Origin: Candidatus Zhuqueibacterota bacterium
GTDB taxonomy: Bacteria > Zhuqueibacterota > Zhuqueibacteria > Residuimicrobiales > Residuimicrobiaceae
DNA: 41,759 nucleotides
Direction of reading: 5' to 3'
NCBI GenBank assembly: GCA_963169875.1
Contig: CAUJEL010000171.1
Location: 1 to 41,759 of the forward strand
Positions 5,401 through 25,600 of the stretch are shown piece by piece. The notes beneath the pieces were generated by a model that was not told the DNA's origin, searched no databases, and saw only the letters and a program-made list of their open reading frames with translations. The first letter of the stretch is position 1, and each line of letters begins with the position of its first letter. Position numbers and translations under genes: made by a program.

Positions 5401-8400
5401 GCCGCTGGCAATTTCAACTTTTTGCCGTCCGGGTTGATCACCGCCACATCCCAGGCGCCCAATGAACGATCCGTCAAATCAAGGCTGGCAATGATGCGCG
5501 TGGAATCCACCACTTCCACCTTGTACGCAACAATGTCTTTAAAACCATTCAAATTGAGTTGTACGGCCGCTCCAGGCTGAAATCCCTGCCCATAAATGGT
5601 TAATTGAATGTTGCCCTTATTGGTCCAATTATCGTGCGAAATCGCCACAACACTGGGTATATTACGCAACCAGGGGGCATAGAGTACACGTCCATACTGT
5701 GATGCATCACGGCCATCATAAACAGCCTGGATATTCGAATCATCCCCCTCTGCTTCCATCTCTGTTGTCGTGACCGGACCCCAAAAGTTTTGCGTCGCAT
5801 TTATCAGGCCCCAAGTCAGATTCTGCAAGTCATATTTACGATTATTGAGCAGATGATTCAGTCGAATGAGAAAGTCCGAACCGTCAAATAACTCGATGCC
5901 GTATTCGTTGGCGGTGATCAAATTATTCTCGATGCTGCAGCTTACCGTGGAATGTACTTTTATGCCAGCACCTCCATTCTGATAAATCTGGCAGCCATAA
6001 ATTTTTACATCATCCTCACTACTGAGGACAATCGCGTCGTCTGTGTTGTTAAAAAACCGGCAATCACTGATCTCCGCGCCGCCATTCACCTGCAGTCCGC
6101 TGGAGGCAGAAGAAATGTGGCAATTACGCAACACTGCATTGGCTTCATTACTGATGCGCAAACCCCGCCATGAGGAATCCGCATCAAGTGCTGTAAAGGT
6201 GATCGGTTGCTCTGGAGTACCGATGGCACTGATATGATTGTCAATACTGAGCGATGCGTTACCCCCAAAGCGCAGATTTACACCTGGAGATATCCGCAGA
6301 TCATTGAAAAAATATGTGGATAAAAGGGCATAGTCTCTTGTCTGTTTTCTGAGTAAAATTTCATCATCAATTGGGAATGGATTGCCGATGAGCAGTAACT
6401 CTGAATGACCATTATTTGCACCCGGTAAGTAACTGCTCAAAGTGATCTCTGTCTGGGCGCTGATCCCCAAAGGCCAGAGGTTATTCTCAAAGAGATTTTT
6501 ATCGCCAAGATGGAGCGCCAAAGCCCCGTCGGTGATCAAGGCGGCTGGATTATCCTTGAATACCTGAAGATCGATCGCAATATAACTGCACCCACTGATG
6601 ATCAGACCAGCCTTATAGTTATTAATAAACTGGTTGGGTGTTTTAATTTTCAGGGTATCGCACTGGAGCGTTCTCATCTCCACGCCGATTTGATTTCGCG
6701 TAAAGGTGCAATTGTCAAGAGGCCACCCAGTCATTGTAAAGAGAAATTGAACACCAACATCATTCTCTGAAAACATACAGTCGCGCACAATATTAGGGAA
6801 AAACGGATTATTTAAAGAGATATCTATGGCACTGCCACAATGGGAAATTGAGCAATTCGTTAATTCTACAGCAGCGAGCGAGGTGTTAATACCGTAGAGA
6901 GCATGACGGATTGCAGTATAGCGCAGGACCGTCCGCTGCGAAGACATAATATCCGTCAAGATGTTAATGCCATCCCATTCCTTTTCATCACTCATCTCAT
7001 AGGCTGTCATCATCACGCTGTCGATAGCGGTCCCCATGCTCTCGAATCGGCCTTGAACAGTCAGGCTGACACCCGGATAAAACTGTATGATGACGCCGGG
7101 ATTAATTGTGAGTGCTTGCCCACGGGGCACATTTATATTCTCGGTTACGATGTAAGGATTGAATTCCTTGTTCCAGGAGCCCGAAACAGTGCCACTCCAA
7201 CCCCCGAGTAAAGCACGATCTTTGATCTGCTCTTTTTTTCCGTTGGCATTTTTTAGCTCAAAATAAGTCACACTCAGAAACTGGCCATTGCGAATTTGCA
7301 GTATGCCATCTCCAATCACCTGGCCGATTGCTTCCTGCCTTGCCAGACTTGTCCACTCCTCATCGATCTCCTTCAATATTTTAGTACGTGCCTCACTTTC
7401 CTCTTTTGTTGACAATTTGCTTACCGTTCTGTTTAGCCGTTCATGGAGGCTGTTTTTTATCGTTAAACCAGGTAGTACATCCAAAGCGATCGAGCCTGTG
7501 AAGACAGCGGATTGATTGGAGGTCTCCCTCAATAGCACCCGTTCACCAAGACTATCTAATGGGCTAAAAAAAACCACGCTGACTGTATCTCTGCTGTCGC
7601 CGTGCAGATTCAGATCTGTATCCTCAAGACGGACAAAGGCCTTTCCAGTGCCTCGGGGATAACTCAGTCCGATCGGTTCGAGTTTCTCATTGGTCAATGC
7701 CAATACGCCTGTAAATCCATTCTCCAGCCTGCCCAGCCATCCGGCATACTTGATCAATCCCAAGCCTGGTTGATCAAGTCCGTCGTAAATTTTGGTGATA
7801 TTACCAGGGTAATTCACCTCATTCATTTCCGTAGTTGTCGGTTCCCCCCAATCATTATACTGGCCATCGAGCGAATCTGAACTGTTGTTGTACCAATCAA
7901 ATTTCCCATTATTGTACAAGGTGCAGTAATTAGCGGAAGTATGGTTATTCTCCCCATAACAATAAATACCATTCATCGTGTTTTGGACAATATAACATTT
8001 TCTAATTTCCACTTCCAAAGGCTGAGCGAATGCACTGGTTGTAATGCCGTTTTTACCATTAGAACCAATATAGCTGTTCTTGATGGAGGAAATGTAATTG
8101 GGATAGTATAACATTTCATCATAGATTACACCGTTTTCTTCATTAGAGATGATATAACAGCTATCAATGCTGGATCCGGGACCTCGGCTTGCAATACCAT
8201 TACGATTATGACGAATGGAAGAATTCTTTACTATGACATTAGTGAAAACCGTGATTCCTATATCAGCAAATTCGACCACCGAATAATTTAACTGGCTCTT
8301 CAAATTGGAAAAGCTCATAGAAAAGTCGATGCCCTGCCAATCACCTGGACTGGCATTGGCTTTGTCGGAGGTAAAAATGACGCTGTCCTGCTTGGTACCC

Positions 8401-8723
8401 TTGGTACGAAGTCTGCCCTTAACCCTGATGCCAAAGCCGCTTTGGAAGCGCACTTGAACACCAGCCTCGATGACGAGGCTGTCCATGAAAGATACCGTAC
8501 AATCGCCATCGACAATATAGGGGCTTTTAGCTTTGGTCCAAATACCCTTTACTTGTCCATGGACAAATTGCCCTGTGTTAACTCTGGCATTATTCACGGG
8601 AATGATTGGGCTGCTTTCCTGCGCAATATCTGACATTTCTTGGGGATTTGAATAGAGGGAAAAAACACAAAAATGAATTAGTAAAAACAGAACGCCAAAA
8701 AGTTGCCCTACTCTCTGTACCAT
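2493..8723 (-). CDS. Giant T9SS-exported beta-helix surface protein (2076 aa)
   Basis: The N-terminus (MVQRVGQLFGVLFLLIHFCV) is a signal peptide. Residues about 40-330 and 480-1010 contain repeated short segments such as 'NSSIRHNRNGIASRG', 'CQIYQNGGAGIKVH' and 'NLITANEYGIELFDGSDF', typical of right-handed parallel beta-helix proteins that bind or cut polysaccharides. An IPT/TIG-like Ig domain follows near 1020-1115. At about 1520 the motif 'SIDPNEKAGPEGYG' opens a DUF11-like conserved domain ending in 'HNRASIVFDVN'. An fn3/Ig-like domain follows (about 1700-1790). The last ~91 residues (NLGQNYPNPFNGETVI ... RKLMLLR) are a T9SS sorting domain, so the mature protein should be surface-attached or released. 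Start ATG at 8723 has AGAGGGG 7-9 bases upstream. No catalytic residues can be assigned. It is probably monocistronic. Confidence 0.85.
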   Translation of the reverse strand: MVQRVGQLFGVLFLLIHFCVFSLYSNPQEMSDIAQESSPIIPVNNARVNTGQFVHGQVKGIWTKAKSPYIVDGDCTVSFMDSLVIEAGVQVRFQSGFGIRVKGRLRTKGTKQDSVIFTSDKANASPGDWQGIDFSMSFSNLKSQLNYSVVEFADIGITVFTNVIVKNSSIRHNRNGIASRGPGSSIDSCYIISNEENGVIYDEMLYYPNYISSIKNSYIGSNGKNGITTSAFAQPLEVEIRKCYIVQNTMNGIYCYGENNHTSANYCTLYNNGKFDWYNNSSDSLDGQYNDWGEPTTTEMNEVNYPGNITKIYDGLDQPGLGLIKYAGWLGRLENGFTGVLALTNEKLEPIGLSYPRGTGKAFVRLEDTDLNLHGDSRDTVSVVFFSPLDSLGERVLLRETSNQSAVFTGSIALDVLPGLTIKNSLHERLNRTVSKLSTKEESEARTKILKEIDEEWTSLARQEAIGQVIGDGILQIRNGQFLSVTYFELKNANGKKEQIKDRALLGGWSGTVSGSWNKEFNPYIVTENINVPRGQALTINPGVIIQFYPGVSLTVQGRFESMGTAIDSVMMTAYEMSDEKEWDGINILTDIMSSQRTVLRYTAIRHALYGINTSLAAVELTNCSISHCGSAIDISLNNPFFPNIVRDCMFSENDVGVQFLFTMTGWPLDNCTFTRNQIGVEMRTLQCDTLKIKTPNQFINNYKAGLIISGCSYIAIDLQVFKDNPAALITDGALALHLGDKNLFENNLWPLGISAQTEITLSSYLPGANNGHSELLLIGNPFPIDDEILLRKQTRDYALLSTYFFNDLRISPGVNLRFGGNASLSIDNHISAIGTPEQPITFTALDADSSWRGLRISNEANAVLRNCHISSASSGLQVNGGAEISDCRFFNNTDDAIVLSSEDDVKIYGCQIYQNGGAGIKVHSTVSCSIENNLITANEYGIELFDGSDFLIRLNHLLNNRKYDLQNLTWGLINATQNFWGPVTTTEMEAEGDDSNIQAVYDGRDASQYGRVLYAPWLRNIPSVVAISHDNWTNKGNIQLTIYGQGFQPGAAVQLNLNGFKDIVAYKVEVVDSTRIIASLDLTDRSLGAWDVAVINPDGKKLKLPAAFTIDEGRVNLWSRLTGRRQFRLGRENSLILTVGNSGSREAPSASLLLRVPRCFKIKIESPQLQKPYVADLTTHHKESESDSIVTLECYLGRMERLETRTLKLSLTPVYLVETINLATAMVLNVLDVTGPVEERELVAQIRIPDADLILNSQNRLYVTINDEKGWEYSVNRNTSPPTIRYWRWRRRHPYFHLGGIVYTFISTENPKKRKVYPETEQHFEIYKTERMKDLNDDGVILETRKGDIPGVTICTRILQSVFADGYWLRNDVTDAQLITLGKQFSIRAYTDVGGDCITAPDSIAQDKKGANIIGGFVDEGEDEPYRADEFALAFGIDPATLPSGCLSSSQVVILPKDCADPCSPNILLYSHINSNPNLNDNFESSYPSLSPFQDFYQGEDQVCFPDDIQFDPFEVEILTSIDPNEKAGPEGYGGTNALPIDEPLTYLVYFENLANATAPAQEISIRDTLDADLDWTTLTFGDIQFGDTLLHIGPGSKSLDFSVVLTDSTTMAVRAAVDQSTGIADWHFLGKHVDSGELADLLPPNRTPPQGEGHVEFTIDALKRPSGTQIHNRASIVFDVNRPLMTNTVFNTLDSQPPSSRITAYADTTASNDFSLIWQAMDDSSGAGIKTCTIYISENGGPYSSWQIAGSSLSANYIAQPDHSYAFYTVATDSVGNMESVPNNPDLLIFNARYQYPAAGWYLISLMNAVSEDSLASLLPVGSQAFCWNPVNRIYEPAETLNFGRGYWLGVASPVTVVRAGEMKLERRDHYLPGWHLIGGLHRTLGLDEIYVSPRGAMAGMYNWDQEKNTYMLTDSLQPGQGEWIAMLCEGDISFGKEVDVLDTLSLETRNTLLASFYHEYGTLPPAPPRITKVADSQIEIPKSFNLGQNYPNPFNGETVIRYQVPEAAQVTIKIYNIMGQLVKTLVDQTVKPGFHQLSWDGRGHSGQRVATGVYYCKMEAPDYKKIRKLMLLR

Positions 8724-9453
8724 ATAACGCCCCTCTCTTGTAAGACAATTTAAATCATTTAATACAAGCGCTGCAGCATTTTTTAATATAATCGATTTGG
8801 GCAGATCGTGTCTCCTTAGAGGAATATAAACAACATAAAGAATGGAAGCAAGCGGTGATTCTCAGAATACATGAGGTTTTAATTCTCAGGGGACATCAAC
8901 CTGAGCATAGGAATGGAACATTTTCTGCAAACTACACAGGGGGCACTTCCCCGTCGTTATTGACTACAGTACGAAAATGGCCGGTACTGAGCGCCCGTTG
9001 CCGCAAGGAACTCGTTTCCCCAAATTCCCGGTACTTTGTGAGTCTGGGGCAATCTTCTCTTTCAAGTCTTGGATTTTGTGCGGGGCGATAAACTAAAAAG
9101 TATAAAATAGTCCTTGGAATTCATTATTCATGCCAATAATGGCGTTTTTTAGATACCCTAAGGGCGGAAATATCCTTGAGGGGCATGGTTGTAGCAGGTT
9201 CCAGCTCGCTTAAAATGCAAAAAAAAGGCAAAAAATTGATTCCAAGGCCGTTTTTTAAGCATGAAAATTACTTAACAACAATATAAATAATAATATATTT
9301 TGGTCCAACACTGTTATAAAACATTAGACAGGGTCCTCGGAATTTTCACCAAGCCCAAAAGAAGCCTACCCATTATCTGCAAGAAATCGAACCGAAACAT
9401 ATGATCAGACATATCTTCAGAGGATCCTGTATCTTTTAATTTTTCTTCTGCGC
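8724..9453. other. Non-coding region between the beta-helix gene and the BREX locus
   Basis: 730 bases without a credible gene. It holds the ribosome-binding site of the beta-helix gene, one copy of a dispersed repeat (about 9115-9300), and a loose inverted repeat (CAGGGTCCTCGG at about 9328; CAGAGGATCCTG at about 9416) downstream of brxL that could act in transcript ending. Short open frames here lack ribosome-binding sites and family resemblance. Confidence 0.6.
9115..9300. repeat. Dispersed non-coding repeat, copy 1
   Basis: This segment aligns with 35781-35960 in the same orientation. Shared blocks are TTCATGC.AATAATG.CGTTT, GA.ACCCT.A.GG, GGCAT.GTTGT and AAAATGCAAAAA.AAGGCAAA, followed by a run of T and an AT-rich tail. 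It lies about 390 bases upstream of the start of a large T9SS-cargo gene on the minus strand; copy 2 is placed similarly (about 285 bases). It contains no conserved open frame. Confidence 0.6.
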
Positions 9454-11523
9454 TCAAAGACTACTTGCAGAAGCTCCGATTTTAATAAACGTAGCCTCAA
9501 ATGCCTTACAAGGGCGGTATTGCTGCAGCCGATTTGCGAAGGTAAAAGCATCAGTCATCTCGTAGTGCTGAAAAATATCGAGTCCACGATCCAGGGAGAT
9601 TTTCCAGCCGTGGTCGGTCACGATGTGACGGGAATGGATGGTTTTGTTACTGTCAAACTCCCAGGTAAAGTTTACGCCCACCGTACTGGCCGACTCTTTA
9701 ATCTTCTCAAAGTTTACCTTCTGCTGTTCGCCTTTGAACTCGTCCTCTATTGTTATCAAATGAACCGACACTTCCTCATCAGGAGTTTTAAGCCTGACTA
9801 TAGTTTCTAGAAATTCCATAAAGTTACGCATCTGGTAAAACAGGCGGATATACGGATCGGTGACTGTGATAACGGTTGCTCCCTTGAGATAGGGGCCTAG
9901 CAAAGTATCGAAGGAGAGGCCTTTTTGATTCTCCTGAAAGGTTAGGTGTTTTTCTTTAAGGACAGGCTCGAGCGGTACCCGAGGATCTGACCCGATCTCA
10001 TGCGCAGCGGATTCCGCAGCGTCGGAGGTTTTGCCGTTTTCGTCTTCGCTTATTGATTTGTGGTAATAACTGGGGTATTCCTCCTCTTCGAGCGTGGTGA
10101 CACGCTTGGTATGCTTAGTTGCGTCGGTATAAGCAAAACGGACGATACGGTAGGTGGAATCAATTCGCATCAGTTGGTCTTTAACGCGCTTGCGGCCTTC
10201 AATCGCGAACCGAAGCAATTCCTCAACCTCTTCTTTGCTCGCTTCACCTTGTGGGAACAAAATCTTCATCAGTCCAGAGAAGGTCTTGTTGATACCGTCA
10301 CGATCCCGCGTTGAGATGTCGGAAGAGAGGGAAAAATGGCTTTCATAACGGTCCGAGTAATCATGATTGCGTAATGAGCGTAAAATCTCAGCAAGGTAAT
10401 CCACCACAAATCCGTAACCATTGCAGAACATTTCGCCACGAATGATATCGACCTCCCAGCCCGGAATATAGAAATGGATACGGTCGAGGAACGCAGAGTC
10501 GTAAAACTTTTCAGGCAGTTCGCAAAACAGGTCCGAATGTTTTAGCATGTATGGCACATTGTGCTGGGTGTTACCTACAAAAACCATGGATGCCTCTGCG
10601 CCCAGTGTCTCGATGCCCCGCGAAAAGGACTTGTTGGCCATATAGTTCTTCAAAATGTCGACGAGGGCCTTGTCGACGCGCTTTTGTTTTCCAGCGAATT
10701 CGTCGAAGGCAACGCAATCCCAGTAGCCGACCAGGCCAATCTTTCCTGAGGAGTTATTTACGAACAGCTTGGGGACAGTGACCTCACCACCGGAAAGCAG
10801 GATGCCGTGCGGCGAGAATTCCGAATAGATATGCGATTTACCGGTCCCCTTGGGGCCAAGTTCGATCAGGTTATAGTTGCGCTCGCAATAGGGGATCAGG
10901 CGGATCAGCTGTGTCAGTTTGCTGCGCTTGCCGAACATCTCCGGATTGAAGCCGATGCTCTGCACCAGCAGATCGATCCACTCGTCGGTGGTGAATTGCT
11001 TGCGGGCCTCAACATATCCTTCGAAATCGAACTGGGAGAGTTGGATTGGCTTGAGGGTCGATAAGATCCAGGGGCTGGCGCTTTTATCTTCGGTAAACTC
11101 ATATTCCAGATCAGCAATGCACCACACTCCGCCGACCAGGAGCTTGGGATGCTTTTTCACCGTTCCTGAATCAACAAGTACCTCTTTGATGCCCAGGTTG
11201 GAGAAATCTGCCTCATAGACATCCTTCTTGTCGTTGAGGTCAACACTTATTTTGTCGATGACCTTGTAGCGCCCCTTTTCCTTTATGTTCGAGCGAACTA
11301 ATCCGGCTTCATTCCGGTGAACATAATGTTTGGCAAGGATCTCTTTTACTGTTTCGATGCCGGTCTGGATGGTTGGCTCATCGCTGGTGGCACAATACTG
11401 CCCGAGCAGGTATTCCAGCACGTAGGAGGGAACTATGGCGTTGCCCTTGACCGTTTTGACGAGATCCTTGCGGACAACGAGGCCCGGAAAGTGGGCGTTG
11501 ATTTTTTGATCTAAGGGAGTCAT
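9454..11523 (-). CDS. brxL: BREX AAA+ protein BrxL with an MIT_C-type C-terminus
   Basis: 689 residues. The N-terminal part (about 1-200) and the AAA+ core match type I BrxL: 'AHFPGLVVRKDLVK', 'VPSYVLEYLLGQYCA', 'YKVIDKISVDLN'. Walker A is GPKGTGKS (223-230), Walker B is DCVAFDEF (269-276), a sensor-like 'MVFVGNTQHNV' follows, and 'FLDRIHFYIPGW' holds the arginine region. BrxL is the ring-forming DNA-dependent motor that is needed for phage exclusion but not for host methylation. After 'RKRVKDQLMRI' the usual Lon (S16) domain is missing. Residues about 536-675 instead read 'TVTDPYIRLFYQMRNFMEFL' ... 'IHSRHIVTDHGWKISLDRGL', resembling the MIT_C phospholipase-D-like domain of human MITD1. No GxSxG-type Lon serine motif is visible. 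It is the last gene of the locus, 136 bases after pglZ, so it may have its own promoter. Confidence 0.93.
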   Translation of the reverse strand: MTPLDQKINAHFPGLVVRKDLVKTVKGNAIVPSYVLEYLLGQYCATSDEPTIQTGIETVKEILAKHYVHRNEAGLVRSNIKEKGRYKVIDKISVDLNDKKDVYEADFSNLGIKEVLVDSGTVKKHPKLLVGGVWCIADLEYEFTEDKSASPWILSTLKPIQLSQFDFEGYVEARKQFTTDEWIDLLVQSIGFNPEMFGKRSKLTQLIRLIPYCERNYNLIELGPKGTGKSHIYSEFSPHGILLSGGEVTVPKLFVNNSSGKIGLVGYWDCVAFDEFAGKQKRVDKALVDILKNYMANKSFSRGIETLGAEASMVFVGNTQHNVPYMLKHSDLFCELPEKFYDSAFLDRIHFYIPGWEVDIIRGEMFCNGYGFVVDYLAEILRSLRNHDYSDRYESHFSLSSDISTRDRDGINKTFSGLMKILFPQGEASKEEVEELLRFAIEGRKRVKDQLMRIDSTYRIVRFAYTDATKHTKRVTTLEEEEYPSYYHKSISEDENGKTSDAAESAAHEIGSDPRVPLEPVLKEKHLTFQENQKGLSFDTLLGPYLKGATVITVTDPYIRLFYQMRNFMEFLETIVRLKTPDEEVSVHLITIEDEFKGEQQKVNFEKIKESASTVGVNFTWEFDSNKTIHSRHIVTDHGWKISLDRGLDIFQHYEMTDAFTFANRLQQYRPCKAFEATFIKIGASASSL

Positions 11524-11659: not shown

Positions 11660-14158
11660 TCAGAAGTCGAAATCGTTGGTAAATGATCGCCGCATCAAGT
11701 ACCTGAGCGACTTGTATTCCTTGTAATGTGAAGTCCCGGCGTGTTTTTCCTCCAGCCGCAGGATGACCTCCTGGCCGTTGGCCTCATCGGCTTTGCGGGT
11801 GAGCACAAAGCGCACCTGCAGTTCCCGCTCCCGCGGGTTTTCCGAGCCCAGATCGAAGGTCAGCGCATGGCTGTCGGAGATCAGGTCACCCGCTTCGGTG
11901 TAGATGCCGACCCGCAGCACGCGCGGCTGAATCTTGTCTGTCACTGGCCCGGCCTGGTACAAGGTCACGGCCAGTTGCCCGGAGGTGATCATCGTGCTGG
12001 CTCCACGCAGGATATCGACTTCAACAGTGGTGACATCACTCTGGCGTTTCTTGTTGATCTTGAGCACCGGGATCACCACCTCCTGCAGCGATGCACCACC
12101 ATGCACAAAGCGGCTGCCGGAGCCCTTCAGGCGCAGACGGTTGATCGATTTGGGTATCTGCACTTCCACATCACCGTCAAGCCCAAGCTGCCCGGAGGTG
12201 AACTTGTGCATGCTGGATGCCTCGGCAAGCCCCTTGCCTAGCACGAAGCGGCGGTCGCGGTACAGAACCTGATCTCCCCCGGCATCGATTCCGGAAAAGT
12301 CGCTCTCCTCAATGGCGCGGTTCTGGTAGATGAAGCCATGGTCTGAGGTAACTAGCAAATTGTTGGCGTTGGCCCCGGTCAGTTTCTTGATCAGACGAAT
12401 CAGCTCCTGCAGGGTTTCTTCCACTGCCTCGAAAACCAGTTCCTCGGATTCCTTCTTGTCACCGGTAGCGTCAATCCGGTTGTGGTAGACGTAAATCACA
12501 TCATGATCGCGAACAAGTGCCCGGCACTCCTCCCCTTTCATGGCCATCAACTCATCGGCCCTGCAAGCCGTTGCCCGCTGACTAACTGCCTGGCCGAGAA
12601 TTTTGATGCGGTTGGCTACTCCCTGCGAACTTTTGCCATCCACCAGCACAGCGCCGGTCTCATTGTCGGCAAGCGTCAGTTTTTTGTTGGGCAGCAGTGC
12701 TGCCATGCCAAGCTGGGTATAGCTGGGCAACATCGAGATCGCCGGTTCCAGTTCAGCGCTGTAACGGTCCTCTTGTCTGATGAGACTCAACAGTTCCTCG
12801 CCAATCTCGTAGCGCATGGCGTCGGAGATGATGACGCAGACCTTGTTTTCCTTATGCAGGAACGGCCGTGCCCAATATTCGAAGAACTCATTCTGCCTGC
12901 GCACGGGTAAAGCTTCCCATTTGGCGGCTGTATCCACAAAGGTCTGGAAGCGGTCTCCCAGTTTTAGCAGGTAGTTGTTGGAATAGAGGTTTTCAATCTG
13001 ATCAGTCAAATGGCCCATCAGTGATGCCTGCCCCGACATGCGCACATGGTAAGTGAACTTGCGGTAAAGCTGATCGAGCCGATACCAGAAGCGGCTGTAG
13101 CGCTGCACGCCATCAGCCAGGCTATCCATGGCGAGCTTGGCCTCACTCAGGGCATGGGTAAACTGGGCGGCGAAATCAACCGCCTCATAAAGATGCCGGT
13201 ATTCCCTATACCAATGGCCCTGCCGCCGCTGACGGACCCAGAGCGATACATCGGTGCTGGAGACTGTGCGCGATGCCAACGCCCGCACCAGGTCGCTGAT
13301 GATCTTCTGGTCAATCAGGCGGAAATAATCCAGTTCAATTAACTCGCGGAAATCGCGCTTGGCCAGATCCTGTTCAATACCGAGGACCTCGGCGCATTCT
13401 CCAGAAAGTATCTCGAATCCGCCTTCAAACTGGCGGCTATCCTTCCAATGCTTGAGAAACACCAGGCCGTCGCCGGTGAGTTTCACCTGGCCATCGGTGC
13501 CCATGGCGTAACAAGACTTGAACAACTCAATGGCAAAGTCGCGAATGCCCGGCTCTTCGGACTTGTAGCCATAGCAGCGGGTCATCTGTTCCCAGAAGAA
13601 ACCATCCAGGTTGCATCGGCCAATCAGCTTGATTTTCTCGTCCCGGCCGTCTGCCAACTCCTGCAGCAGGGTTTCCGCCACCGCATCCATGCGCGGCTCG
13701 GTGCCGGTACAGACCGCCAGCATTTTCAGGCGGATTTGTCCGGCGGTGTCGTCGGATTTCAGTAATTTCTTGAGAGCGTCCTTGCGCTTTGCTGCCTGGA
13801 AGAATTCCGCATGGGCCTCCACCATATCGGTGAACTCCAGGCCAAGATCCAGTTCGGACAGCCAGATGGCCACCTGATCGGTGCGGAACACGCCGTGTGC
13901 CAGCTGTACATCCAGCAGCCAGTTGTCCAGATCGGCAGGCTGAGGACCTTCGCGATAGAGCAGGAACTTTTGTTCCGGCTGCTCGCGCAGCAGCCTGTAT
14001 TTGATGCCGTACTCGTTGTTGATCAGCTCCAGCTTCTCGACGTCGGGAAGCTGGAGTGATTCGAAATCGCCGCGCAACTCTTTCTTGGCGTCATACCAGA
14101 AGACGATCCGGTGCCGGTAGAAGAGTTTGGTCAGGGCCTGGGCTATGCGGTTTTCCAT
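11660..14158 (-). CDS. pglZ: BREX-1 phosphatase-like protein PglZ (type A)
   Basis: 832 residues, the usual size of type I PglZ. The N-terminal segment 'HRIVFWYDAKKELRGDFESL' is characteristic. The central alkaline-phosphatase-like core has metal- and nucleophile-type motifs: 'IISDAMRYEIGEEL' (from about 443), 'SMLPSYTQLGMAALLP' (about 475-490), 'HNRIDATGDK' (559-568), 'LLVTSDHGFIYQNR' (601-614) and 'SRFVHGGASLQEVVIPVL' further on. PglZ works with BrxB, BrxC and PglX in both modification and exclusion; its biochemical target in the cell is not settled. The gene starts 12 bases after the pglX stop, so the two are almost certainly cotranscribed. The last ~150 residues form a beta-rich C-terminal region. 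No truncation or missing motif was seen. Confidence 0.95.
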   Translation of the reverse strand: MENRIAQALTKLFYRHRIVFWYDAKKELRGDFESLQLPDVEKLELINNEYGIKYRLLREQPEQKFLLYREGPQPADLDNWLLDVQLAHGVFRTDQVAIWLSELDLGLEFTDMVEAHAEFFQAAKRKDALKKLLKSDDTAGQIRLKMLAVCTGTEPRMDAVAETLLQELADGRDEKIKLIGRCNLDGFFWEQMTRCYGYKSEEPGIRDFAIELFKSCYAMGTDGQVKLTGDGLVFLKHWKDSRQFEGGFEILSGECAEVLGIEQDLAKRDFRELIELDYFRLIDQKIISDLVRALASRTVSSTDVSLWVRQRRQGHWYREYRHLYEAVDFAAQFTHALSEAKLAMDSLADGVQRYSRFWYRLDQLYRKFTYHVRMSGQASLMGHLTDQIENLYSNNYLLKLGDRFQTFVDTAAKWEALPVRRQNEFFEYWARPFLHKENKVCVIISDAMRYEIGEELLSLIRQEDRYSAELEPAISMLPSYTQLGMAALLPNKKLTLADNETGAVLVDGKSSQGVANRIKILGQAVSQRATACRADELMAMKGEECRALVRDHDVIYVYHNRIDATGDKKESEELVFEAVEETLQELIRLIKKLTGANANNLLVTSDHGFIYQNRAIEESDFSGIDAGGDQVLYRDRRFVLGKGLAEASSMHKFTSGQLGLDGDVEVQIPKSINRLRLKGSGSRFVHGGASLQEVVIPVLKINKKRQSDVTTVEVDILRGASTMITSGQLAVTLYQAGPVTDKIQPRVLRVGIYTEAGDLISDSHALTFDLGSENPRERELQVRFVLTRKADEANGQEVILRLEEKHAGTSHYKEYKSLRYLMRRSFTNDFDF

Positions 14159-14170
14159 GAATATCGCTCC

Positions 14171-17100
14171 TTAATCCTCTTCTGCATCCAGGCCGACGAT
14201 TTTTTTCAAAGCAGCACCAAGTTTGGGATAGTTTACCTTCACGCCGTCGTCGAGGTCGATCTCTACCTGCTCGGTGGCCAGCGGGTAAAGTACTTCGCGC
14301 TCGTACTCTTCCATCTCGGCAATCATTTTAGTGATCTTTTCGATCTCTTTCAGGGCCCTGGTTTTCTCCGCTTGCGATGCAGAACCGCTGATGCTAATCG
14401 CTGCCAGATGGTTCTTGTGTGAAGTGAGCTTGGTACGGAACTCGCGCAAGTAGTTATTGAGCACCAGGCTGACTGTATCCGGGCGGTAACGATGCATGTA
14501 GATCAGCGCGTTGAAGCTGCCCTTCGTGCTGGAGAATAGCCAATAGATGGGGCGCTTCTTGTAGCGTTTCACATGGTCGGTGTAGAACTCGCTGAGGAAA
14601 TAATCGCGGATGCTGTAGTCGCGTTTGCCCTTTATGTTCAGTGCCTGCTCGACGAAGCGGAGGTTGTCCTCATAATGTTCCTCGCCAAAGGCCACGCGCA
14701 GGAACTTTCGGAAGCGCTCGGCGATGTCGTCGGTGAACCAGTCGCCATCCAGCATGGGGATGACGTTGTCATTGTCGGCCGGGAAGCTCGGTTCCGGAAT
14801 CCGCTTCAGATAGTCCTCGATGGTCTCGCCCTGGTTGGCCAGGATCAGCCCTGGCTTGTCCAGCGCATAGCGGCCAAACATGCAGCCAACGGCATAGGAG
14901 ACCAACTCGTTCATGGTATCGGCCAGCAGCAGCTTCTCCAACTCGTCTTCGCTCTTGCCGTTGCCGTAGCGGTAGTGGGGGTTGCAGGTCAGGGTGATCT
15001 CGTTGAGCGGCACCTCGGGCGTCAGCTCATCCTGCAGGCCATAGGCCTCGATGAAGATGCGGTTATTCTCTTCCTCCAACCGCTGCATCTCCAGCGTGAT
15101 CTCCCGCCAGTGGGCGCGGAGCTTCTGGTAGGTGGCCTTCAGGGTTGGCTGGTGGTAGTCAGGATTCAGCAGCGGCTGGCTGGTGAAATCCCAGGAGGTT
15201 TCGAAGGAGTCCCAGTCTATCCTTGCCGTAGCCACCAGCTCTCTAATTTGTGAGCAACTCCCTTCTGTTTCTTTCAAAGGTAATTTCGATACGACGCCAC
15301 CGTTAAAGTCTAATGTTGGAGAAAGAGCCGCTAAGAAGTAGTACGCGACTTTAGAGTTTAACAATCCAAGCAAATTATCTTTGTCGCTTTCGGATTTTGG
15401 GAAGAGCATTTGCCCCTTTGTATCAAATAAAAATCCGTACCCATTATCTCTGAGCGAAAAATCAGCAGATGACAAGGAAGACCATGTCAAGCCGTTCAGG
15501 AAATAGAAATCCTGATTCCAGCATTTTGAGTTATTCGGAGTTATCCTGCCATGTTCTAAATCTCTGCGCTTTCGTTCTTTAATGTCGAAGCCGTCGTTTT
15601 CCCAGTTAATGGAGTATTCCTTGTTTCCGTGCCATTTGCGATAACCGCCACCTTTGTTGTGAGGAAACCATCTTGCTTTCGACTCAACTGACTCTTCCCT
15701 TGAGCGACAGGTTGGCCGAAACTTCTGTGCACTAACTTCAAACCAATACCTTAGAAATGTGTCATTGTCACCCGTTTGTAGTCCGGCCCTGAATGTCGCC
15801 TTTTCGCTTAAGGGAATATTAATAAAGGCATCCCTCGCTTGCTTGCTAATCCAGTAAGCAATAGGGCTTCCGGGAATCGCCAAAACATCGGAAACTGAAG
15901 TAGTAAATCGCCAGCCACATCTAGGATTCAATACACTTTCTCGAAGAGCTTGCTCTTTTTCCCTCTCTGAATTCCCCTTGACTAAACGCAAATACACCCC
16001 TTCGAAATTTGGGTTGACGCTATTCGCAATAACAAACGCTGTAGTCGAAACCACCTCTCCACTTATGCTGTCGAAAGCTCTAGCGCCAAGGTGCGCCATT
16101 GATCTTATTGTTCCTTGGTGAAGAAGTTTAGAGCGCACTCCTTCATACGATGACAAGAACATCCAGCTTTGCATGGTTATCATCGCTATCAGGCCGTCAT
16201 GCATCGTCAGACCAAGATTTCGCTCAATGAACATAGCGAAAAGGTCTGATTTGCTGATGATGTAATTGTCTTGAACCCATGCCTTGAGTCTTCCATTCAT
16301 CCCGCCTCTTCCCATATACGGCGGGTTAGCAATCACCACATGGTATTTCGGGCTCAGGTAATCAGCCTGCCGCAGGGCTTGCAGCACCTTCTGATGGGTC
16401 ATGCTGTTGAAGAACGAGTGACTAGTGGCCAGTGACCAGTGGCTAGTCAGATAGTCCCGGAGCTTGGTGCATTGCTCAGAGGTGAGGTGTGGACGGACGA
16501 GTGAACCAAAGTTGTCCGCCTCCTCGAAAAGATTCAGGTCGTGCAGAATGTCTTCGCGCGAGGCGCCACAGGCCACTGGCCACTGATCACTAACCACTAA
16601 CTCGTTTTCATCGAAAACGAGTTTCTCCAGCACGCAGATATTCGGTCTGACACCCTTGCTGAAGAAGCGGTGCTGTTTGGCGCGAGCCTTCATGGTCAGC
16701 GCAAAGGCCGCCAGCTCCCCGGCGCGTTCGTCGATATCGATGCCGTAGAGGTTATTCGTTAGGATCTTCTCTGGAATCTCGCCGGGCTCGTACCCTTCCT
16801 CCTCGTAGATAGCGTAGAGAAGGTCGAATGCATAGGTGAGCATGTGGCCAGAACCACAGGCTGGGTCGCAAATCTTGATCTCTTCTGGCTTCTCGATGCG
16901 CAAATAGTCTGTCTCGGCCTGTTCAGGCTTGATGTAATAGTCCATTTTCTCGACCAGCTTCGAGCCAGGTCGATTGAGCAGCCACAGGCGGCCGAGAGAG
17001 TTTTCGACCAGGTAGCGGACGATCCAGTGTGGAGTGAAAAGCTGGGTGGCGGCTGGGATGTTCTCGGGGGTGATTTTCTGATTTTTCTTCAGCCCTTCAA

Positions 17101-17737
17101 ACACCTCGTCCTTCTTCTCGGAGATATAGAACTGGTAGAGCCAGCCGATCACCTCGACGTCTTTGCAGGCATCCGGCGTCATCGCCTCGCGTGTATAAGC
17201 GAGGATGGAGTTGCCCGAAAGCAGGTCGTCGGGCATCAGCAGCTCGGTGTAGTCATCGATGCGCTGGAATAGGAAAGGCATGGCCTTGTTCCAGAAGTTG
17301 CAGGCGGCTACAACCAACAGGCGGTAGGCCTCGCCCTGCGGGTCACGGCTGGGCGCTTTGCCGTCAAGCAGGGCGAAGATCTGCTGCCGGACCTTGTCGT
17401 GTACCATCTCTTCGTCGATGTGCCCCATTTTGGCTTCGGCCAGAATCTCGGGCTGGAACTGTCCCTCAAGGGGCGACACCACACCGATGCGGGTATAGCG
17501 GTTCACGTCCATGAAGCGCAGGGCGCAGAAACGATTGAACCAAACGTAGGCCACCCGTTCGATGATTTGTTCCTTGCCGTGCCCCTTGAGGGCCTCTTCG
17601 AGTTTCTTGACAGCCTCGGCACTTTCGCGCCGGGCGGCGCTGTTTTCTGCAAGCACTAGTTTCAGTTTGGCGGAGACCAGATCCATCAAGCTGCGCCGGG
17701 CGAACTGGGCGAATTTTTTCAGTTTCGCTGTTTCCAT
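14171..17737 (-). CDS. pglX: BREX-1 adenine-specific DNA methyltransferase PglX
   Basis: About 1188 residues. Amino-methyltransferase motif I is 'ICDPACGSGHML' (around residue 293) and motif IV is 'VIANPPYMGRGG' (around residue 473), the N6-adenine type. PglX methylates a non-palindromic site to mark host DNA and is the specificity factor of BREX. The C-terminal half (specificity/target recognition region) is full length. I chose ATG at 17735-17737 (METAKLKKFAQ); a GTG at 17743 would overlap the upstream nuclease stop by 4 bases (GTGA). Either way the gene directly follows the nuclease gene, implying translational coupling. Between motifs I and IV the frame contains two short inserts built from heptamer repeats ('VVSDQWPVACGAS' and 'LTSHWSLATSHSFF'), which look like selfish or slippage-derived DNA tolerated in frame. 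The recognition site cannot be inferred here. Confidence 0.95.
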   Translation of the reverse strand: METAKLKKFAQFARRSLMDLVSAKLKLVLAENSAARRESAEAVKKLEEALKGHGKEQIIERVAYVWFNRFCALRFMDVNRYTRIGVVSPLEGQFQPEILAEAKMGHIDEEMVHDKVRQQIFALLDGKAPSRDPQGEAYRLLVVAACNFWNKAMPFLFQRIDDYTELLMPDDLLSGNSILAYTREAMTPDACKDVEVIGWLYQFYISEKKDEVFEGLKKNQKITPENIPAATQLFTPHWIVRYLVENSLGRLWLLNRPGSKLVEKMDYYIKPEQAETDYLRIEKPEEIKICDPACGSGHMLTYAFDLLYAIYEEEGYEPGEIPEKILTNNLYGIDIDERAGELAAFALTMKARAKQHRFFSKGVRPNICVLEKLVFDENELVVSDQWPVACGASREDILHDLNLFEEADNFGSLVRPHLTSEQCTKLRDYLTSHWSLATSHSFFNSMTHQKVLQALRQADYLSPKYHVVIANPPYMGRGGMNGRLKAWVQDNYIISKSDLFAMFIERNLGLTMHDGLIAMITMQSWMFLSSYEGVRSKLLHQGTIRSMAHLGARAFDSISGEVVSTTAFVIANSVNPNFEGVYLRLVKGNSEREKEQALRESVLNPRCGWRFTTSVSDVLAIPGSPIAYWISKQARDAFINIPLSEKATFRAGLQTGDNDTFLRYWFEVSAQKFRPTCRSREESVESKARWFPHNKGGGYRKWHGNKEYSINWENDGFDIKERKRRDLEHGRITPNNSKCWNQDFYFLNGLTWSSLSSADFSLRDNGYGFLFDTKGQMLFPKSESDKDNLLGLLNSKVAYYFLAALSPTLDFNGGVVSKLPLKETEGSCSQIRELVATARIDWDSFETSWDFTSQPLLNPDYHQPTLKATYQKLRAHWREITLEMQRLEEENNRIFIEAYGLQDELTPEVPLNEITLTCNPHYRYGNGKSEDELEKLLLADTMNELVSYAVGCMFGRYALDKPGLILANQGETIEDYLKRIPEPSFPADNDNVIPMLDGDWFTDDIAERFRKFLRVAFGEEHYEDNLRFVEQALNIKGKRDYSIRDYFLSEFYTDHVKRYKKRPIYWLFSSTKGSFNALIYMHRYRPDTVSLVLNNYLREFRTKLTSHKNHLAAISISGSASQAEKTRALKEIEKITKMIAEMEEYEREVLYPLATEQVEIDLDDGVKVNYPKLGAALKKIVGLDAEED
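16416..16454. repeat. Heptamer-periodic insert in pglX, copy A
   Basis: The plus strand reads GTGACTA GTGGCCA GTGACCA GTGGCTA GTCAGATA, a tandem of 7-base units of the form GTGrCyA. It stays in frame and encodes 'LTSHWSLATSH' on the minus strand. Sequence of this kind is unlike the surrounding codon pattern. Confidence 0.7.
16570..16621. repeat. Heptamer-periodic insert in pglX, copy B, plus 21-base hairpin
   Basis: The minus strand reads TTAGTGG TTAGTGA TCAGTGG CCAGTGG CCTGTGG, the same heptamer family as copy A but in the opposite orientation. It is next to a perfect 9-bp inverted repeat, CTCGTTTTC (16601-16609) and GAAAACGAG (16613-16621). In frame it encodes 'ELVVSDQWPVACGA'. Confidence 0.7.
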
Positions 17738-17739
17738 TA

Positions 17740-18282
17740 TCACAACCCAACCAAATGATTGAACTGAAGGTGATGAGGTGATGAAATTTTCAAAAATTTC
17801 TCCGGTGAATCATGCAGTGGTGACGATTTGTGTCGGGATGGTTTATTATTGACGCTTACATTAACCATGCCAATATACCGATGTGCATAACCATCGAGAA
17901 ATGCATTTTCGTTCCAGAAATGCTTTCCAATTTCTTTGCAATAGGAAATTACGCAGGAAGCACCCTTAAGTTGTTTAATTATATAGCTGCTATCCTTTGG
18001 GCCAGCCTTCAGTTCAACATAAAGAATGACTTTTTTCTCTTCGCTAATAATAATGAAATCAGCCCGTTTGCATTCTCCTTTATCGCCTTTAAAAAATGTC
18101 TTTGGCGTGGGAAATTCGTCAGCTTTTATGACAAGAGCATCGGTAGGTATATTGCGGATGAATGAAACAGAATTCTTGTGTCCTTCTTCATGGAGCTTGA
18201 TGATTGGTTTACCATATTCATACTCATGCGGAACCAGCGCAGATTCTAGAATCAGTTCAGAGAGGATTTCAATATCCTGCAT
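17740..18282 (-). CDS. PD-(D/E)XK nuclease-like partner of the adjacent AAA ATPase
   Basis: About 180 residues. The segment 'KRADFIIISEEKKVILYVEL' followed by 'KAG' and 'IKQLKGASCVISYC' gives D76, E91-x-K93 and Q105 (numbering from the upstream GTG). That is the D-(14)-ExK-Q arrangement of PD-(D/E)XK nucleases, with the expected beta-hairpin and following helix. Predicted role: DNA- or RNA-cleaving effector controlled by the ATPase encoded just upstream. ATG at 18280-18282 overlaps the ATPase stop by one base (TGATG); a GTG at 18285 would overlap by four. GGGGAGGGGATGA gives a strong ribosome-binding site. The stop sits 2 bases before the pglX ATG. It lacks the DUF4435/TOPRIM features of AriB from PARIS. 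It is not a known BREX core protein. Family name unknown; the fold call is by motif only. Confidence 0.7.
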   Translation of the reverse strand: MQDIEILSELILESALVPHEYEYGKPIIKLHEEGHKNSVSFIRNIPTDALVIKADEFPTPKTFFKGDKGECKRADFIIISEEKKVILYVELKAGPKDSSYIIKQLKGASCVISYCKEIGKHFWNENAFLDGYAHRYIGMVNVSVNNKPSRHKSSPLHDSPEKFLKISSPHHLQFNHLVGL

Positions 18283-19676
18283 CACTCATCCCCTCCCCAA
18301 ATGATCTCTTCCTGGATTCGATTCATATCCTCTATGGTTTTGTCGAAACTGCGTGCCTCTATCCCAAGGCTGCTATCAATGTTGGCTTGAACAAGTGTTT
18401 GGCATCTTTTTTTGCGTTGTGCCCCATCCAGCTTAATGAGTGCTTCTTCTGCTATGTACACTCTTACCTTGTCGGGACTTAACATTTCAAAATCGTAGTA
18501 ATGCTCACGATCAGCAAGTGCTTTTAGCCGCTCTCCTCCCTGATTAAGCATAATCAGGGTATTCAGTTCTTTAATGATGTAGTCGCTGTGTGTCGTGATA
18601 AACACCTTGATTCCAATATTGACCAATCGCGCAAAAAGCCGTGCAACCCTCCGCTGATTATCCGGATGCAGATTCAGTTCTGGCTCATCAACCATCAGAA
18701 GGTCGCCCGGGGCGGCTACATGGCGAAGGTAAAAACCAATATCCAGCAACGAACGTACTGCGCTTGAACTTTCGACAAGTGAAAGCTTTACCCGCTTGTT
18801 CGCAGATGGAATGAACTGGACTTCTCCGTCTTTGCTAACGTTGTAATGCCCACCGATAATGTCCTCAAAGGATCTGAGGATTTCAGAGTGATTTTTTAGT
18901 ATGAAACTTCCCTTGTTTTTTAAATCAGGTAAAGTTCGTATAAAATCAACATTCCTGCGGACTGCAATAGGATATTCGCCACTAAACTTGCTCAAGAACT
19001 GAATAGGGTGCAATTTCGATGATTTTTCCCCCAACATTTCAACCAGGCGATTCTTTGTAAAATCCAGTTCTTTCTGAAAAATTGCAGCGCCAGTTCTTTC
19101 GGCACTTGCAAGAAAGGGTTTTGGAACTAGCTTTCCAAGGACAGTAGCAGCAATTCCTTCGCCGATCATATTCTCTATAATATGCTTTGGTGGCAGATCA
19201 TCGTTATCCTTCTCTAAAATCAGGCTGGCCACTAATTCGTATTTGGATTCCGATGAAGAAATCTGCAGGACACTCCGCTTGGCTGTACCATACTTTATAT
19301 GAACCTTGGTCGGCGAAAGTGAATCTGCTGTTCCCAGACTAAACGTTAGTTCAGCGTTTTCAAACCGGCTCTCATTGCCAGCGAATACTCGATACATAAT
19401 CTTTGAGTACCGCCTACTTGCATCATTCAAGTAACTTTGCAAGCGGTCAAAGTATGGTTGCAGCGGGATATTTACAGAACCCTCTTTTAGAAGTTTTTCT
19501 ATAACATCGTTCTCAAAAGGGAACTCCTCATTTGTTCGGAGGTAATCGAAAAATCCATAAGCGGCATGCATAGCATATGTTTTACCAGTGTTATTTTGTC
19601 CACAAATAATTGTCAGTTCCCCGAGAGTAAACTCGGCCTGTTTAATAGGGCCAAGATTTTTTATGGAAATCTTCAT
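18282..19676 (-). CDS. AAA_15/OLD-like ABC-type ATPase, BREX-embedded accessory
   Basis: 464 residues. The N-terminus 'ISIKNLGPIKQAEFTLGEL' and Walker A 'CGQNNTGKTY' (GQNNTGKT, 26-33) are typical of RecF/OLD-type ATPases. Walker B is 'LLMVDEPELNLHP' (about 326-338) and the switch histidine is in 'FITTHSDYIIKELN' (H363). The protein ends without a TOPRIM domain, so catalysis is expected from the separate nuclease encoded next. Its architecture is like AriA of PARIS or PtuA of Septu: an ATPase that senses phage and releases or activates a partner nuclease. GAGGAG lies about 10 bases before the ATG. Upstream are 249 bases holding a brxC-tail remnant and a repeat-palindrome array, so this gene probably begins a sub-operon that runs ATPase-nuclease-pglX-pglZ. 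Confidence 0.85.
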   Translation of the reverse strand: MKISIKNLGPIKQAEFTLGELTIICGQNNTGKTYAMHAAYGFFDYLRTNEEFPFENDVIEKLLKEGSVNIPLQPYFDRLQSYLNDASRRYSKIMYRVFAGNESRFENAELTFSLGTADSLSPTKVHIKYGTAKRSVLQISSSESKYELVASLILEKDNDDLPPKHIIENMIGEGIAATVLGKLVPKPFLASAERTGAAIFQKELDFTKNRLVEMLGEKSSKLHPIQFLSKFSGEYPIAVRRNVDFIRTLPDLKNKGSFILKNHSEILRSFEDIIGGHYNVSKDGEVQFIPSANKRVKLSLVESSSAVRSLLDIGFYLRHVAAPGDLLMVDEPELNLHPDNQRRVARLFARLVNIGIKVFITTHSDYIIKELNTLIMLNQGGERLKALADREHYYDFEMLSPDKVRVYIAEEALIKLDGAQRKKRCQTLVQANIDSSLGIEARSFDKTIEDMNRIQEEIIWGGDE

Positions 19677-19925: not shown

Positions 19926-21416
19926 TCATGGCGCATTCCTTTTTATCCACTCTTTACCCGCTGCGGTCAACCGGTATTTCTGCAAGCGGCTGTTGGGTTT
20001 GGCGGGGATGGTCATTTCGATCTTACCCTGTCCAAGCAAAAGGCGGAGTTGCTTTTTCAGTTCACCGGACACGGTTTTGTGACCAAGTTTTTGCGCCAGC
20101 TCGGCTTTTCCCGAAGGCTCTTGCGCTAGCAATAAAAGTACTTTGATGGCCAATGCTGACTCGGGCCGTAACTCGGGCCGTGACTCGGGCCGTGACTCGG
20201 GCCGTGACTCCAGGGTGGTGACTTCCAGTCTCTCGCCAAACTCCGGCACTTTGACTACTATTCTAAACACATCTCCCTCAACAAGTTCCGGATCTGCTCC
20301 GCCATATGCCCGACTGTATTTCATCATTTTGCGCATGCCGGAGCCGAGTTCGTCGGCGCGACCAATCTGGCGAAAGAATTTGGCAATCACAGGGTTCTTG
20401 GGGAAAGGAGTAAATGTTTCCGGATCAAGCCGGCCAAAGCCATGGGGACGACTGCTGTTCTCGGTGCGCACTATACCACGCTCGATGATGAGCTTGGCGG
20501 GGAAGGCGTTCATGTATTCCCGATGGATCAGGATGTTCGAAGCCACTTCTCGAAAGATAGCGTCGCGGATGCTGATGCTGGTGGTCCCTTCCAGAAAAAA
20601 CGGGTCGGGCAGGTGTTTGTGGATAAAAGCCATGATTCGTTCATAACTTTCCACCAGATTGACATCGACGAAATCGCGGTCATCGTAGCGATCAAGATTC
20701 ACTTTGCGCAGGATCAGATCGGTGCGGTGGTGGGGTACCGTATTCAACAACGGCAGTTGCTTCCCCAGCAGCAGAATCCCCGCCAGGGTAATACCGCTTG
20801 CACCACTTTCTGGACTGGTCTGATAAAGCTGGGCGCTTTTGAGCAGCTCCAGATCATCCAAATCTTTCCATGGATGATTTTCCCAACGGAGGGTCGCAAT
20901 CTTGCGGCATTTGGCGATCAGATCACGGTCCAGATCATCAAGCAGAAGATGAGGAAAGATTCTGTTTTCGCTATAGGTTGACTGTTTGCGCTGATATAGG
21001 TGTGCAACCTGGGCCGTATTGTCTGTGATATCGAAATCTCCATCCTCATTCCGATCAAAAATACGGCCATTGCAGCGGTGGACCTGTGAACTTTCCGGCA
21101 CATAAATGTAAAGCAATTTTTTGCCTTCCAATTCAGCATCTAAAATGGAAAGGTAGGTCGGCGGCGTCAGTTTCTGCGGATTGTTGATGCCGGTGACAAA
21201 GTCCTTGCGAATCTGATCGAGCTCGCCCGGATCAATTCCAACAATCGAACCGTCATCAGCCACGCCCAGCAGCAGGGTGCCCCCATGCCGATTCAAAAAA
21301 GCGCACACAGTCTGATAAACAGATTTGGGCAATTGATCGCGACAAGCCTTGAACTCAACATCAAGCCCCTCGCCTATTGCAATCATTGCCTGTAATCTTT
21401 GTTCATCGGTGTTCAT
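19926..21416 (-). CDS. AlbA_2 / HATPase-like putative transcriptional regulator
   Basis: 496 residues. The N-terminal AlbA_2 (Schlafen-type, DNA/RNA-binding) domain shows 'EGLDVEFKACRDQLPKSVY' and 'FLNRHGGTLLLGVADDG' (about 16-56). The middle has an HATPase_c_4-like segment, 'IFREVASNILIHREYMN' (about 288-304), and 'GRADELGSGMRKM'. After a linker made of SRPE repeats (about 403-420) comes a C-terminal winged-helix region (about 421-490). Such proteins are usually called RecG-like or divergent AAA_4 regulators; they occur in defence islands and some control them. It starts 9 bases after the brxC stop with GGAAGC before the ATG, so it is read with brxA-brxB-brxC. It is not a BREX core gene and may replace the BrxR-type regulator, which is absent here. 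The gene lies between the true brxC tail and a second degenerate brxC tail, suggesting insertion as a cassette. Confidence 0.8.
   Translation of the reverse strand: MNTDEQRLQAMIAIGEGLDVEFKACRDQLPKSVYQTVCAFLNRHGGTLLLGVADDGSIVGIDPGELDQIRKDFVTGINNPQKLTPPTYLSILDAELEGKKLLYIYVPESSQVHRCNGRIFDRNEDGDFDITDNTAQVAHLYQRKQSTYSENRIFPHLLLDDLDRDLIAKCRKIATLRWENHPWKDLDDLELLKSAQLYQTSPESGASGITLAGILLLGKQLPLLNTVPHHRTDLILRKVNLDRYDDRDFVDVNLVESYERIMAFIHKHLPDPFFLEGTTSISIRDAIFREVASNILIHREYMNAFPAKLIIERGIVRTENSSRPHGFGRLDPETFTPFPKNPVIAKFFRQIGRADELGSGMRKMMKYSRAYGGADPELVEGDVFRIVVKVPEFGERLEVTTLESRPESRPESRPELRPESALAIKVLLLLAQEPSGKAELAQKLGHKTVSGELKKQLRLLLGQGKIEMTIPAKPNSRLQKYRLTAAGKEWIKRNAP
20158..20205. repeat. Four 12-bp repeats coding an SRPE linker
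   Basis: Four tandem copies of (G/A)ACTCGGGCCGT, in frame with the AlbA_2 gene, code for repeated S-R-P-E before the winged helix. The unit length is four codons, so copy-number change would lengthen or shorten the linker without breaking the frame. Confidence 0.85.
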
Positions 21417-24974: not shown

Positions 24975-24988
24975 CACGCTTCCTTCGT

Positions 24989-25600
24989 TTATGCTTCGCA
25001 GTGAAAGATATTGAAGGCCCGGTAATATTTGTCGTCATGCAGTCTTCCAAAGAGATCGAGCGATGCTCCCGACTCCAGGGAGTGGGTGTATGCTCCCGGG
25101 AAAAACATGACGGTCGGTTTCTCTTTCGCCGTGCTTTGCAAATTGTTCAAAACGTTGTGTGAGCGGATGTAGGGGAACACCTCTCCAACACCGCACAGAA
25201 AGAGAACATCGAAATCCGTGCTTGCCAGCTTGGTTGCAATGGCCGGAACAAGGTGCGCTTCGGGGTCCAGTACGCCTTGCAACAGTTCCTTGAGCTGCTC
25301 TTTGGCGACAGTATTCTCCATCTCGAGAATCTGCTCCCAGATGTCACGTTCTTTGAGGATTTCGATCGAAAGGTCATAAAGGTTAATCTGCAGAATCCGA
25401 ATACCGGCCTGCTCAAGACGGTTGACAAGCAGACGCTGGAGCCGGCCCATTTCGACAGACTCTTCCGGCTTGAAAGGACAGATGAAGAACGGAACCTCGT
25501 TGCCGAGACCTTGCTTGTTTAGAAAACGTTTACTCGAGATCACAGAAAAGAGATGTTGAAATCTGTCTTGCATTGGCATTCCGCCACTATGAGCTGTCAC
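24989..25600 (-). CDS. brxB: BREX protein BrxB (DUF1788)
   Basis: 203 residues from the GTG at 25598-25600, which overlaps the brxA stop by four bases (GTGA) and has GAGGGGGA about 8 bases upstream, indicating translational coupling. In-frame ATGs at residues 8 and 10 are alternative starts; family members usually begin close to 'MQDRFQHLFSVISS'. The conserved C-terminal segments 'FLCGVGEVFPYIRSHNVLNN' and 'DKYYRAFNIF' identify DUF1788/BrxB. BrxB is small and cytoplasmic, with no known catalytic activity. It is essential in type I BREX and is thought to bridge PglZ and the other core proteins. Confidence 0.93.
   Translation of the reverse strand: MTAHSGGMPMQDRFQHLFSVISSKRFLNKQGLGNEVPFFICPFKPEESVEMGRLQRLLVNRLEQAGIRILQINLYDLSIEILKERDIWEQILEMENTVAKEQLKELLQGVLDPEAHLVPAIATKLASTDFDVLFLCGVGEVFPYIRSHNVLNNLQSTAKEKPTVMFFPGAYTHSLESGASLDLFGRLHDDKYYRAFNIFHCEA

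Follow-up and report, generated by a model that had tools for sequence, protein, structure and literature searches.

A BrxL of a type I BREX operon with an MIT_C domain in place of the Lon-like tail, and its kinship to human MITD1

Introduction

BREX systems are widespread, and the way in which they stop phage is still argued. The structural account in PMC10164562 describes BrxL as an ATP-dependent DNA-binding ring, the C-terminal domain of which joins two rings tail to tail. According to section 19 of Rakesh and Krishnan 2026 (PMC12839542), the Lon-type tail of BrxL is without a catalytic dyad. The same report finds that in 1030 of 2913 type I BrxL an "HKD-endoDNase" carrying an HRD motif stands where the Lon-like domain would be, proposes that the tail supplies an extra nuclease effector, and credits an earlier note of such a tail to Li et al. 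2025.

The BrxL tail swap and its nuclease reading are already known from that report (PMC12839542), the main text of which does not contain "MIT" or "MITD1" as whole words. The literature search, covering titles and abstract openings with few subscription papers and no preprints, returned none linking the BrxL tail to MITD1. The present analysis differs from that report in naming the tail as MIT_C, in tracing its relatives more widely and in showing where the HRD motif is incomplete; the close kinship of the tail to MITD1 is less appreciated.

Results

The window (the whole analysed stretch of 41,759 nucleotides) carries a type I BREX operon on the minus strand, and brxL (9454-11523, 689 aa) is its last gene. 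It follows pglX (14171-17743) and pglZ (11660-14158), both identified by Pfam, PADLOC and NCBIfam profiles, and it stands together with brxC (21426-24977), brxB (24989-25600) and brxA (25597-26211), also identified by profile matches. Inside the operon sit a pair of accessory genes matching PADLOC PDC-M47B (17740-18285, minus) and PDC-M47A (18282-19676, minus) and a gene for an AlbA_2 (Schlafen-type) protein with a Fic-like C-terminal domain (19926-21416, minus).

BrxL_N (PF20442, E 3e-50) covers residues 11-141 (11101-11493, minus) and the BrxL AAA+ ATPase domain (PF13337, E 3.8e-132) covers residues 153-460 (10144-11067, minus), with GPKGTGKS read from the sequence as Walker A. A phmmer comparison with PDB sequences matched 8emc over residues 4-470 (E 1.2e-148), and the NCBIfam model TIGR02688 scored 678.8 bits against 329.3. 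Both the two domains and the operon place are those of a type I BREX BrxL, and the BrxL identity given in the earlier note holds. PADLOC PDLC02508 matched residues 1-682 with 1206.6 bits, so BrxL with this tail was already present in the PADLOC 2023 library.

The C-terminal part differs from the Lon-like domain that is usual, not universal, in BrxL. MIT_C was detected by Pfam (PF16565, E 2.4e-43, 147.9 bits for a cut-off of 25), and phmmer matched MITD1 chains 2ymb and 4a5z over residues 524-672 (E about 4e-17). The AlphaFold2 model of residues 455-689, built on 41 homologues, has pLDDT around 90 across the domain core and under 50 across residues 491-517, a disordered linker (9973-10053, minus). 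The best PDB fold matches are MITD1 chains (Foldseek E 2.7e-15), and human MITD1 superposed with VIA Z 20.2, rmsd 2.5 over 149 residues and 31% identity. SauUSI (Z 10.5), NgoAVII R (8.6), Nuc (8.2) and BfiI (8.0) come next, placing the tail within the PLD fold; nucleases and lipid enzymes of this fold are mixed at equal rank, Z about 7-9.4, among the matches listed. Profile above the curated cut-off and MITD1-type fold together assign residues 535-680 (9484-9921, minus) to MIT_C, in agreement with the MIT_C/PLD-fold tail of the earlier note and with the outcome of the structural comparison with MITD1 that it had suggested. An MIT domain, which in MITD1 is N-terminal, was not matched by Pfam anywhere in the 689 residues (E up to 0.1).

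The Lon-type tail, which the earlier note had also reported as missing, was not detected by Pfam (no Lon match at E up to 0.1), by NCBIfam, the BrxL models of which end at residue 456-478, or by a profile of 19 Lon-type BrxL tails, which gave -0.3 bits and touched only residues 458-482. The two tail types share a similar short opening (VRFAYTDATKHTKRVTT in the window, VHFSYIDKESLEERFISV as a Lon-type example), which in the window is a two-strand segment of residues 463-475 (10099-10137, minus). The first part of the protein is BrxL-like up to the proposed boundary of about residue 455; since both tails begin alike, the real switch lies nearer residue 478. That first stretch is all that resembles a Lon-type start and would speak for a diverged, unrecognised Lon S16 domain or an artefactual ORF fusion. 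The MITD1-type fold and the 19-tail Lon profile refute the former and the presence of BrxL and MIT_C in one ORF at 68 of 70 genome loci rules out the latter, leaving the two jointly a very small probability. The best 50 structure matches listed include no Lon chains, an absence that alone proves nothing. The protein is almost certainly a BrxL of type I BREX with MIT_C, a single PLD fold, standing in for the catalytically dead Lon-like tail. The proposal that proteolysis is not needed also fits, since even the Lon-type BrxL tail is described without its catalytic dyad (PMC12839542).

We examined how common this tail is in phylum samples that were evenly drawn, with seeds picked for having MIT_C added (one for the Pseudomonas phylum, two for the Belliella phylum). 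In the Pseudomonas phylum sample, PF16565 was over the cut-off in 7 of 398 genomes and PF13337 in 17; all seven MIT_C genomes are among the 17 BrxL genomes, and the other 10 have Lon-type tails. The Belliella phylum sample has MIT_C in 15 of 32 over-cut-off BrxL places, partial ORFs included. A Lon-like tail is not defining for BrxL, because 22 of the 49 BrxL places of these two samples carry MIT_C instead. Roughly a third to half of type I BrxL carry MIT_C, so the tail does not mark a rare sub-type. When six samples are taken together with their seeds, BrxL holds 39 of the 45 PF16565 places over the cut-off. In the window's own phylum the domain was over the cut-off in 1 of 82 genomes, namely the window's own, a rarity in keeping with horizontal spread. 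Weak PF16565 matches near 20-22 bits were left out of the MIT_C counts, as L003, the one inspected, proved to be an ABC transporter.

The scan of genome contigs with peptide patterns, biased toward near relatives, yielded the 70 loci mentioned above; the two exceptions are a broken gene and a contig edge. The scan of the viral collection gave a single locus (L074), an 89-kb contig encoding a BrxL-MIT_C of about 89% tail identity. Some such genes in public plasmid records are annotated "MIT C-terminal domain-containing protein". A disrupted brxL, its frame interrupted by a stop or frameshifts, was also observed in Stutzerimonas stutzeri KOS6 (L012, near 5845) and on a Hymenobacter plasmid (L200, 8523-10564).

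Whether the tail switch follows accessory genes, a check raised by the earlier note, was addressed with 20 regions, a small sample, 18 of which hold BrxL. The order pglX-pglZ-brxL occurs with both tails in most, the AlbA-like gene was found in just one Lon-type locus, and M47A reached only 26 bits, in two MIT_C loci. In these regions the accessory genes of the window do not follow tail type.

The BrxL tree was built from the N-terminal and ATPase parts, with 47 rows picked from the retrieved set and near-copies dropped. MIT_C appears in three clades: 26 rows (the main clade, with the window), four rows including L159, the second BrxL of the window's genome, and three rows from operons with SspC-like BrxC. 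A single clade for all MIT_C BrxL was rejected (p-AU 0.00012, the clades having been named after the tree was seen), so the BrxL-MIT_C pairing arose at least twice. Uniting the two type I MIT_C clades was not rejected (p-AU test, p 0.258). An earlier quick tree, with 55 of 127 rows, agreed in kind.

The three-row clade deserves attention since type 4 BrxL are said in section 19 of PMC12839542 to lack C-terminal extensions. In L161/L208, L206 and L207, the operons that encode a BrxL-MIT_C also encode an SspC-like BrxC and a divergent PglZ. The L161/L208 operon encodes an Eco57I methylase, a DUF4007 (SspB-like) protein, SspC-like BrxC and divergent PglZ. It may be related to type 4 BREX, the phosphorothioate type, without belonging to it, and has the look of a methylating relative.

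Outside BrxL, the domain was detected in several other proteins. A 2023-aa DruE-like helicase (Druantia; L209, 4663-10734, plus) ends in MIT_C at residues 1881-2002 (56.8 bits). In L164 (9113-12310, plus) MIT_C is followed by Sel1 repeats, and an SNF2 helicase, an Eco57I methylase and an Mrr endonuclease lie nearby. L165 (7868-10706, plus) has an AAA ATPase with an NsnB-like match and then a 308-aa protein, behind a type III restriction enzyme; this 308-aa protein has a weak Pfam MIT_C match (32.1 bits) and an HDRxxxxD motif, and despite the former MITD1 was not matched when it was compared with PDB sequences. A dynamin-like GTPase of 947 aa from a Thiodictyon plasmid (L201, 5640-8483, plus) carries MIT_C at the C-terminus and is the sole membrane-type partner seen.

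These partners bear on the idea of the earlier note that the tail acts at the membrane. MIT_C could target BrxL to the membrane as the domain of MITD1 does; the MITD1 fold match and the one dynamin-like protein would favour this. Most prokaryotic MIT_C partners are DNA-acting defence proteins and BREX acts on DNA; no other membrane feature came to light in the profile and fold comparisons. Beyond MITD1 homology nothing spoke for membrane targeting, and we regard it as improbable. Action on DNA appears the likelier role of the tail.

The motif pair quoted in the earlier note was located in the ORF 9454-11523 (minus), DPYIRLFYQMRNF being residues 556-568 and HSRHIVTDHGWKISLDRGLD residues 630-649. 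Conservation of the pocket was counted over 87 distinct MIT_C sequences. In the DPYIR motif (residues 556-560; 9844-9858, minus), D556 and R560 are invariant. The HxRxxxxD motif (residues 630-637; 9613-9636, minus) is a variant of the PLD HKD motif, with H630 in 85 sequences, R632 in all 87 and D637 in 77. RGLD (residues 646-649; 9577-9588, minus), which probably stands in place of the PLD GSxN, has R646 in 85, G647 and L648 in 87 and D649 in 86. Q564, T591, W640, I642 and R670 are likewise found in 87 of 87. In a comparison of nine chosen proteins (BrxL of three clades, Sel1, dynamin-like, DruE-like, ATPase-linked and human MITD1), D556, Q564, T591, H630, R632, G647 and D649 are kept in all, R560 in seven, W640 in six, and D637 and R670 in eight each. 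The pocket, being so widely conserved, therefore does something.

The window has HxRxxxxD where PLD and HKD nucleases have HxKxxxxD. The position of the HKD lysine is arginine throughout the 87 sequences, the histidine is missing in two, and the aspartate of HRD (D637) is replaced in 10 (N in six, S in three, G in one); human MITD1 has N there. Judged by its residues, the pocket is not a clean HKD enzyme signature. PLD1 K898R and PLD2 K758R are mutants used in PMC3648575, the methods of which list catalytically inactive PLD1 and PLD2 mutants; given these mutants, the change from K to R may not preserve activity, contrary to what the published account assumes. The substitution leaves the putative activity uncertain.

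These gaps would agree with MIT_C being a PLD fold without catalysis that serves for dimerisation and for binding phosphate or DNA, and thereby fills the structural role of the Lon-like tail. The replaced tail is itself described as inactive (PMC12839542) and as joining rings (PMC10164562), and the two tail types were exchanged more than once. The invariance of D556, R560, Q564 and R632 in 87 of 87 sequences, and their being mostly kept in the Sel1, dynamin-like, DruE-like and human proteins, would be left unexplained by a structural role. This explanation is a serious possibility, at somewhat over a one-third share of our belief. A catalytic role of the pocket on DNA stands at about even odds.

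The kinship with human MITD1 was followed in the domain sequences. The C-terminal stretch of human MITD1 is 47.6% identical to L199 (the BrxL tail of a Thioflavicoccus plasmid), 46.9% to L110, 43.0% to L001 (the second BrxL of the window's genome) and 32.4% to the window's. Within the sample, its nearest relatives are BREX BrxL tails (43-48% identity). By phmmer, MITD1 scored 134.7 bits with the second copy of the genome and 65.2 with the window's. That second copy, the tail of which is much closer to human MITD1, lies in L159 (G000:C75:52000-71990) at 8354-10411 (minus), a BREX-like locus with PglX-like pieces, M78/HTH, AbiEi, divergent PglZ and BrxL.

In the unrooted domain tree of 51 rows, obtained from a 53-row tree by dropping three long-branched rows and adding one, human MITD1 and five tails (four of intact BrxL, one of a broken one) are split off by a branch with support 100/100, and within this group human MITD1 stands beside the five (96/84). 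With the long rows kept (53 rows) the branch is weaker (95/89) and also includes a long-branched row. MITD1 is listed among metazoan innovations (PMC3789837). The tree, unrooted and with a single eukaryotic sequence, is compatible with an animal ancestor having captured the domain from bacteria.

Discussion

The explanation that we favour, believed about as readily as it is doubted, is that BrxL forms an AAA+ ring on phage DNA and its MIT_C tails act on the phosphodiester backbone. The N-terminal and AAA+ parts would assemble as an ATP-driven ring on phage DNA, as in other BrxL, with the MIT_C domains hanging from the tail of the ring by flexible linkers. PLD folds commonly pair, forming the active site; the MIT_C domains could pair in this way and take over the ring-to-ring contact made by the Lon-like tail. 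A phosphodiester-handling pocket would thereby be brought to the DNA exit of the ring, where DPYxR, HxRxxxxD and RGLD would work on the DNA backbone, most likely as a BREX-switched nuclease or nickase.

The Pfam and PDB matches, the fold including SauUSI, the near-invariant pocket and the DNA-acting defence partners argue for a DNA-acting tail, and the endoDNase conclusion was reached independently in PMC12839542. The arginine for lysine and the losses of aspartate and histidine argue against it, as do lipid PLDs scoring level with most nucleases. MITD1 shares the pocket and is reportedly known for membrane binding and not for catalysis, a point attributed to work by Hadders in 2012. Recognition of nucleic acids appears to be the better half of the earlier note's functional proposal; it has been published as an HRD-motif endoDNase, the putative activity of which the lysine-to-arginine change makes uncertain.

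We tentatively propose, with slightly less than even confidence, that MIT_C moves between prokaryotic anti-phage systems as a C-terminal module (at least two independent BrxL pairings; a Druantia-type DruE; dynamin-like, Sel1 and ATPase-linked proteins), always with a single conserved pocket for handling phosphate, and that animals captured it from a BREX BrxL lineage as the C-terminal half of the cytokinesis protein MITD1, the pocket being kept and perhaps still used on a phosphodiester. An active nuclease in the tail would give at least a third of type I systems a second effector in addition to PglZ; a dead tail would mean that the published nuclease reading has to be revised. The MITD1 tie connects a human ESCRT-III partner with bacterial immunity and makes MITD1 a candidate for having a phosphodiester ligand or activity.

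The PLD-family nucleases SauUSI, NgoAVII R, BfiI and Nuc share with the window tail the fold (Z 8.0-10.5) and the histidine of the HKD motif; they have HxK and GSxN, whereas the tail has HxR and RGLD. MITD1 (4a5z, 2ymb) is like the tail in fold (Z 20.2), pocket residues and sequence (32% identity), and differs from the window BrxL in having an MIT domain and N in place of D637. As described in PMC10164562, Acinetobacter BrxL (8emc, 8emh) corresponds to the window BrxL in the N-terminal and ATPase parts (residues 4-470) and differs in its own C-terminal domain, which is Lon-like. The BrxL reported in PMC12839542 agree with that of the window in the replaced Lon-like tail, the HRD motif and the type I BREX operon with PglZ.
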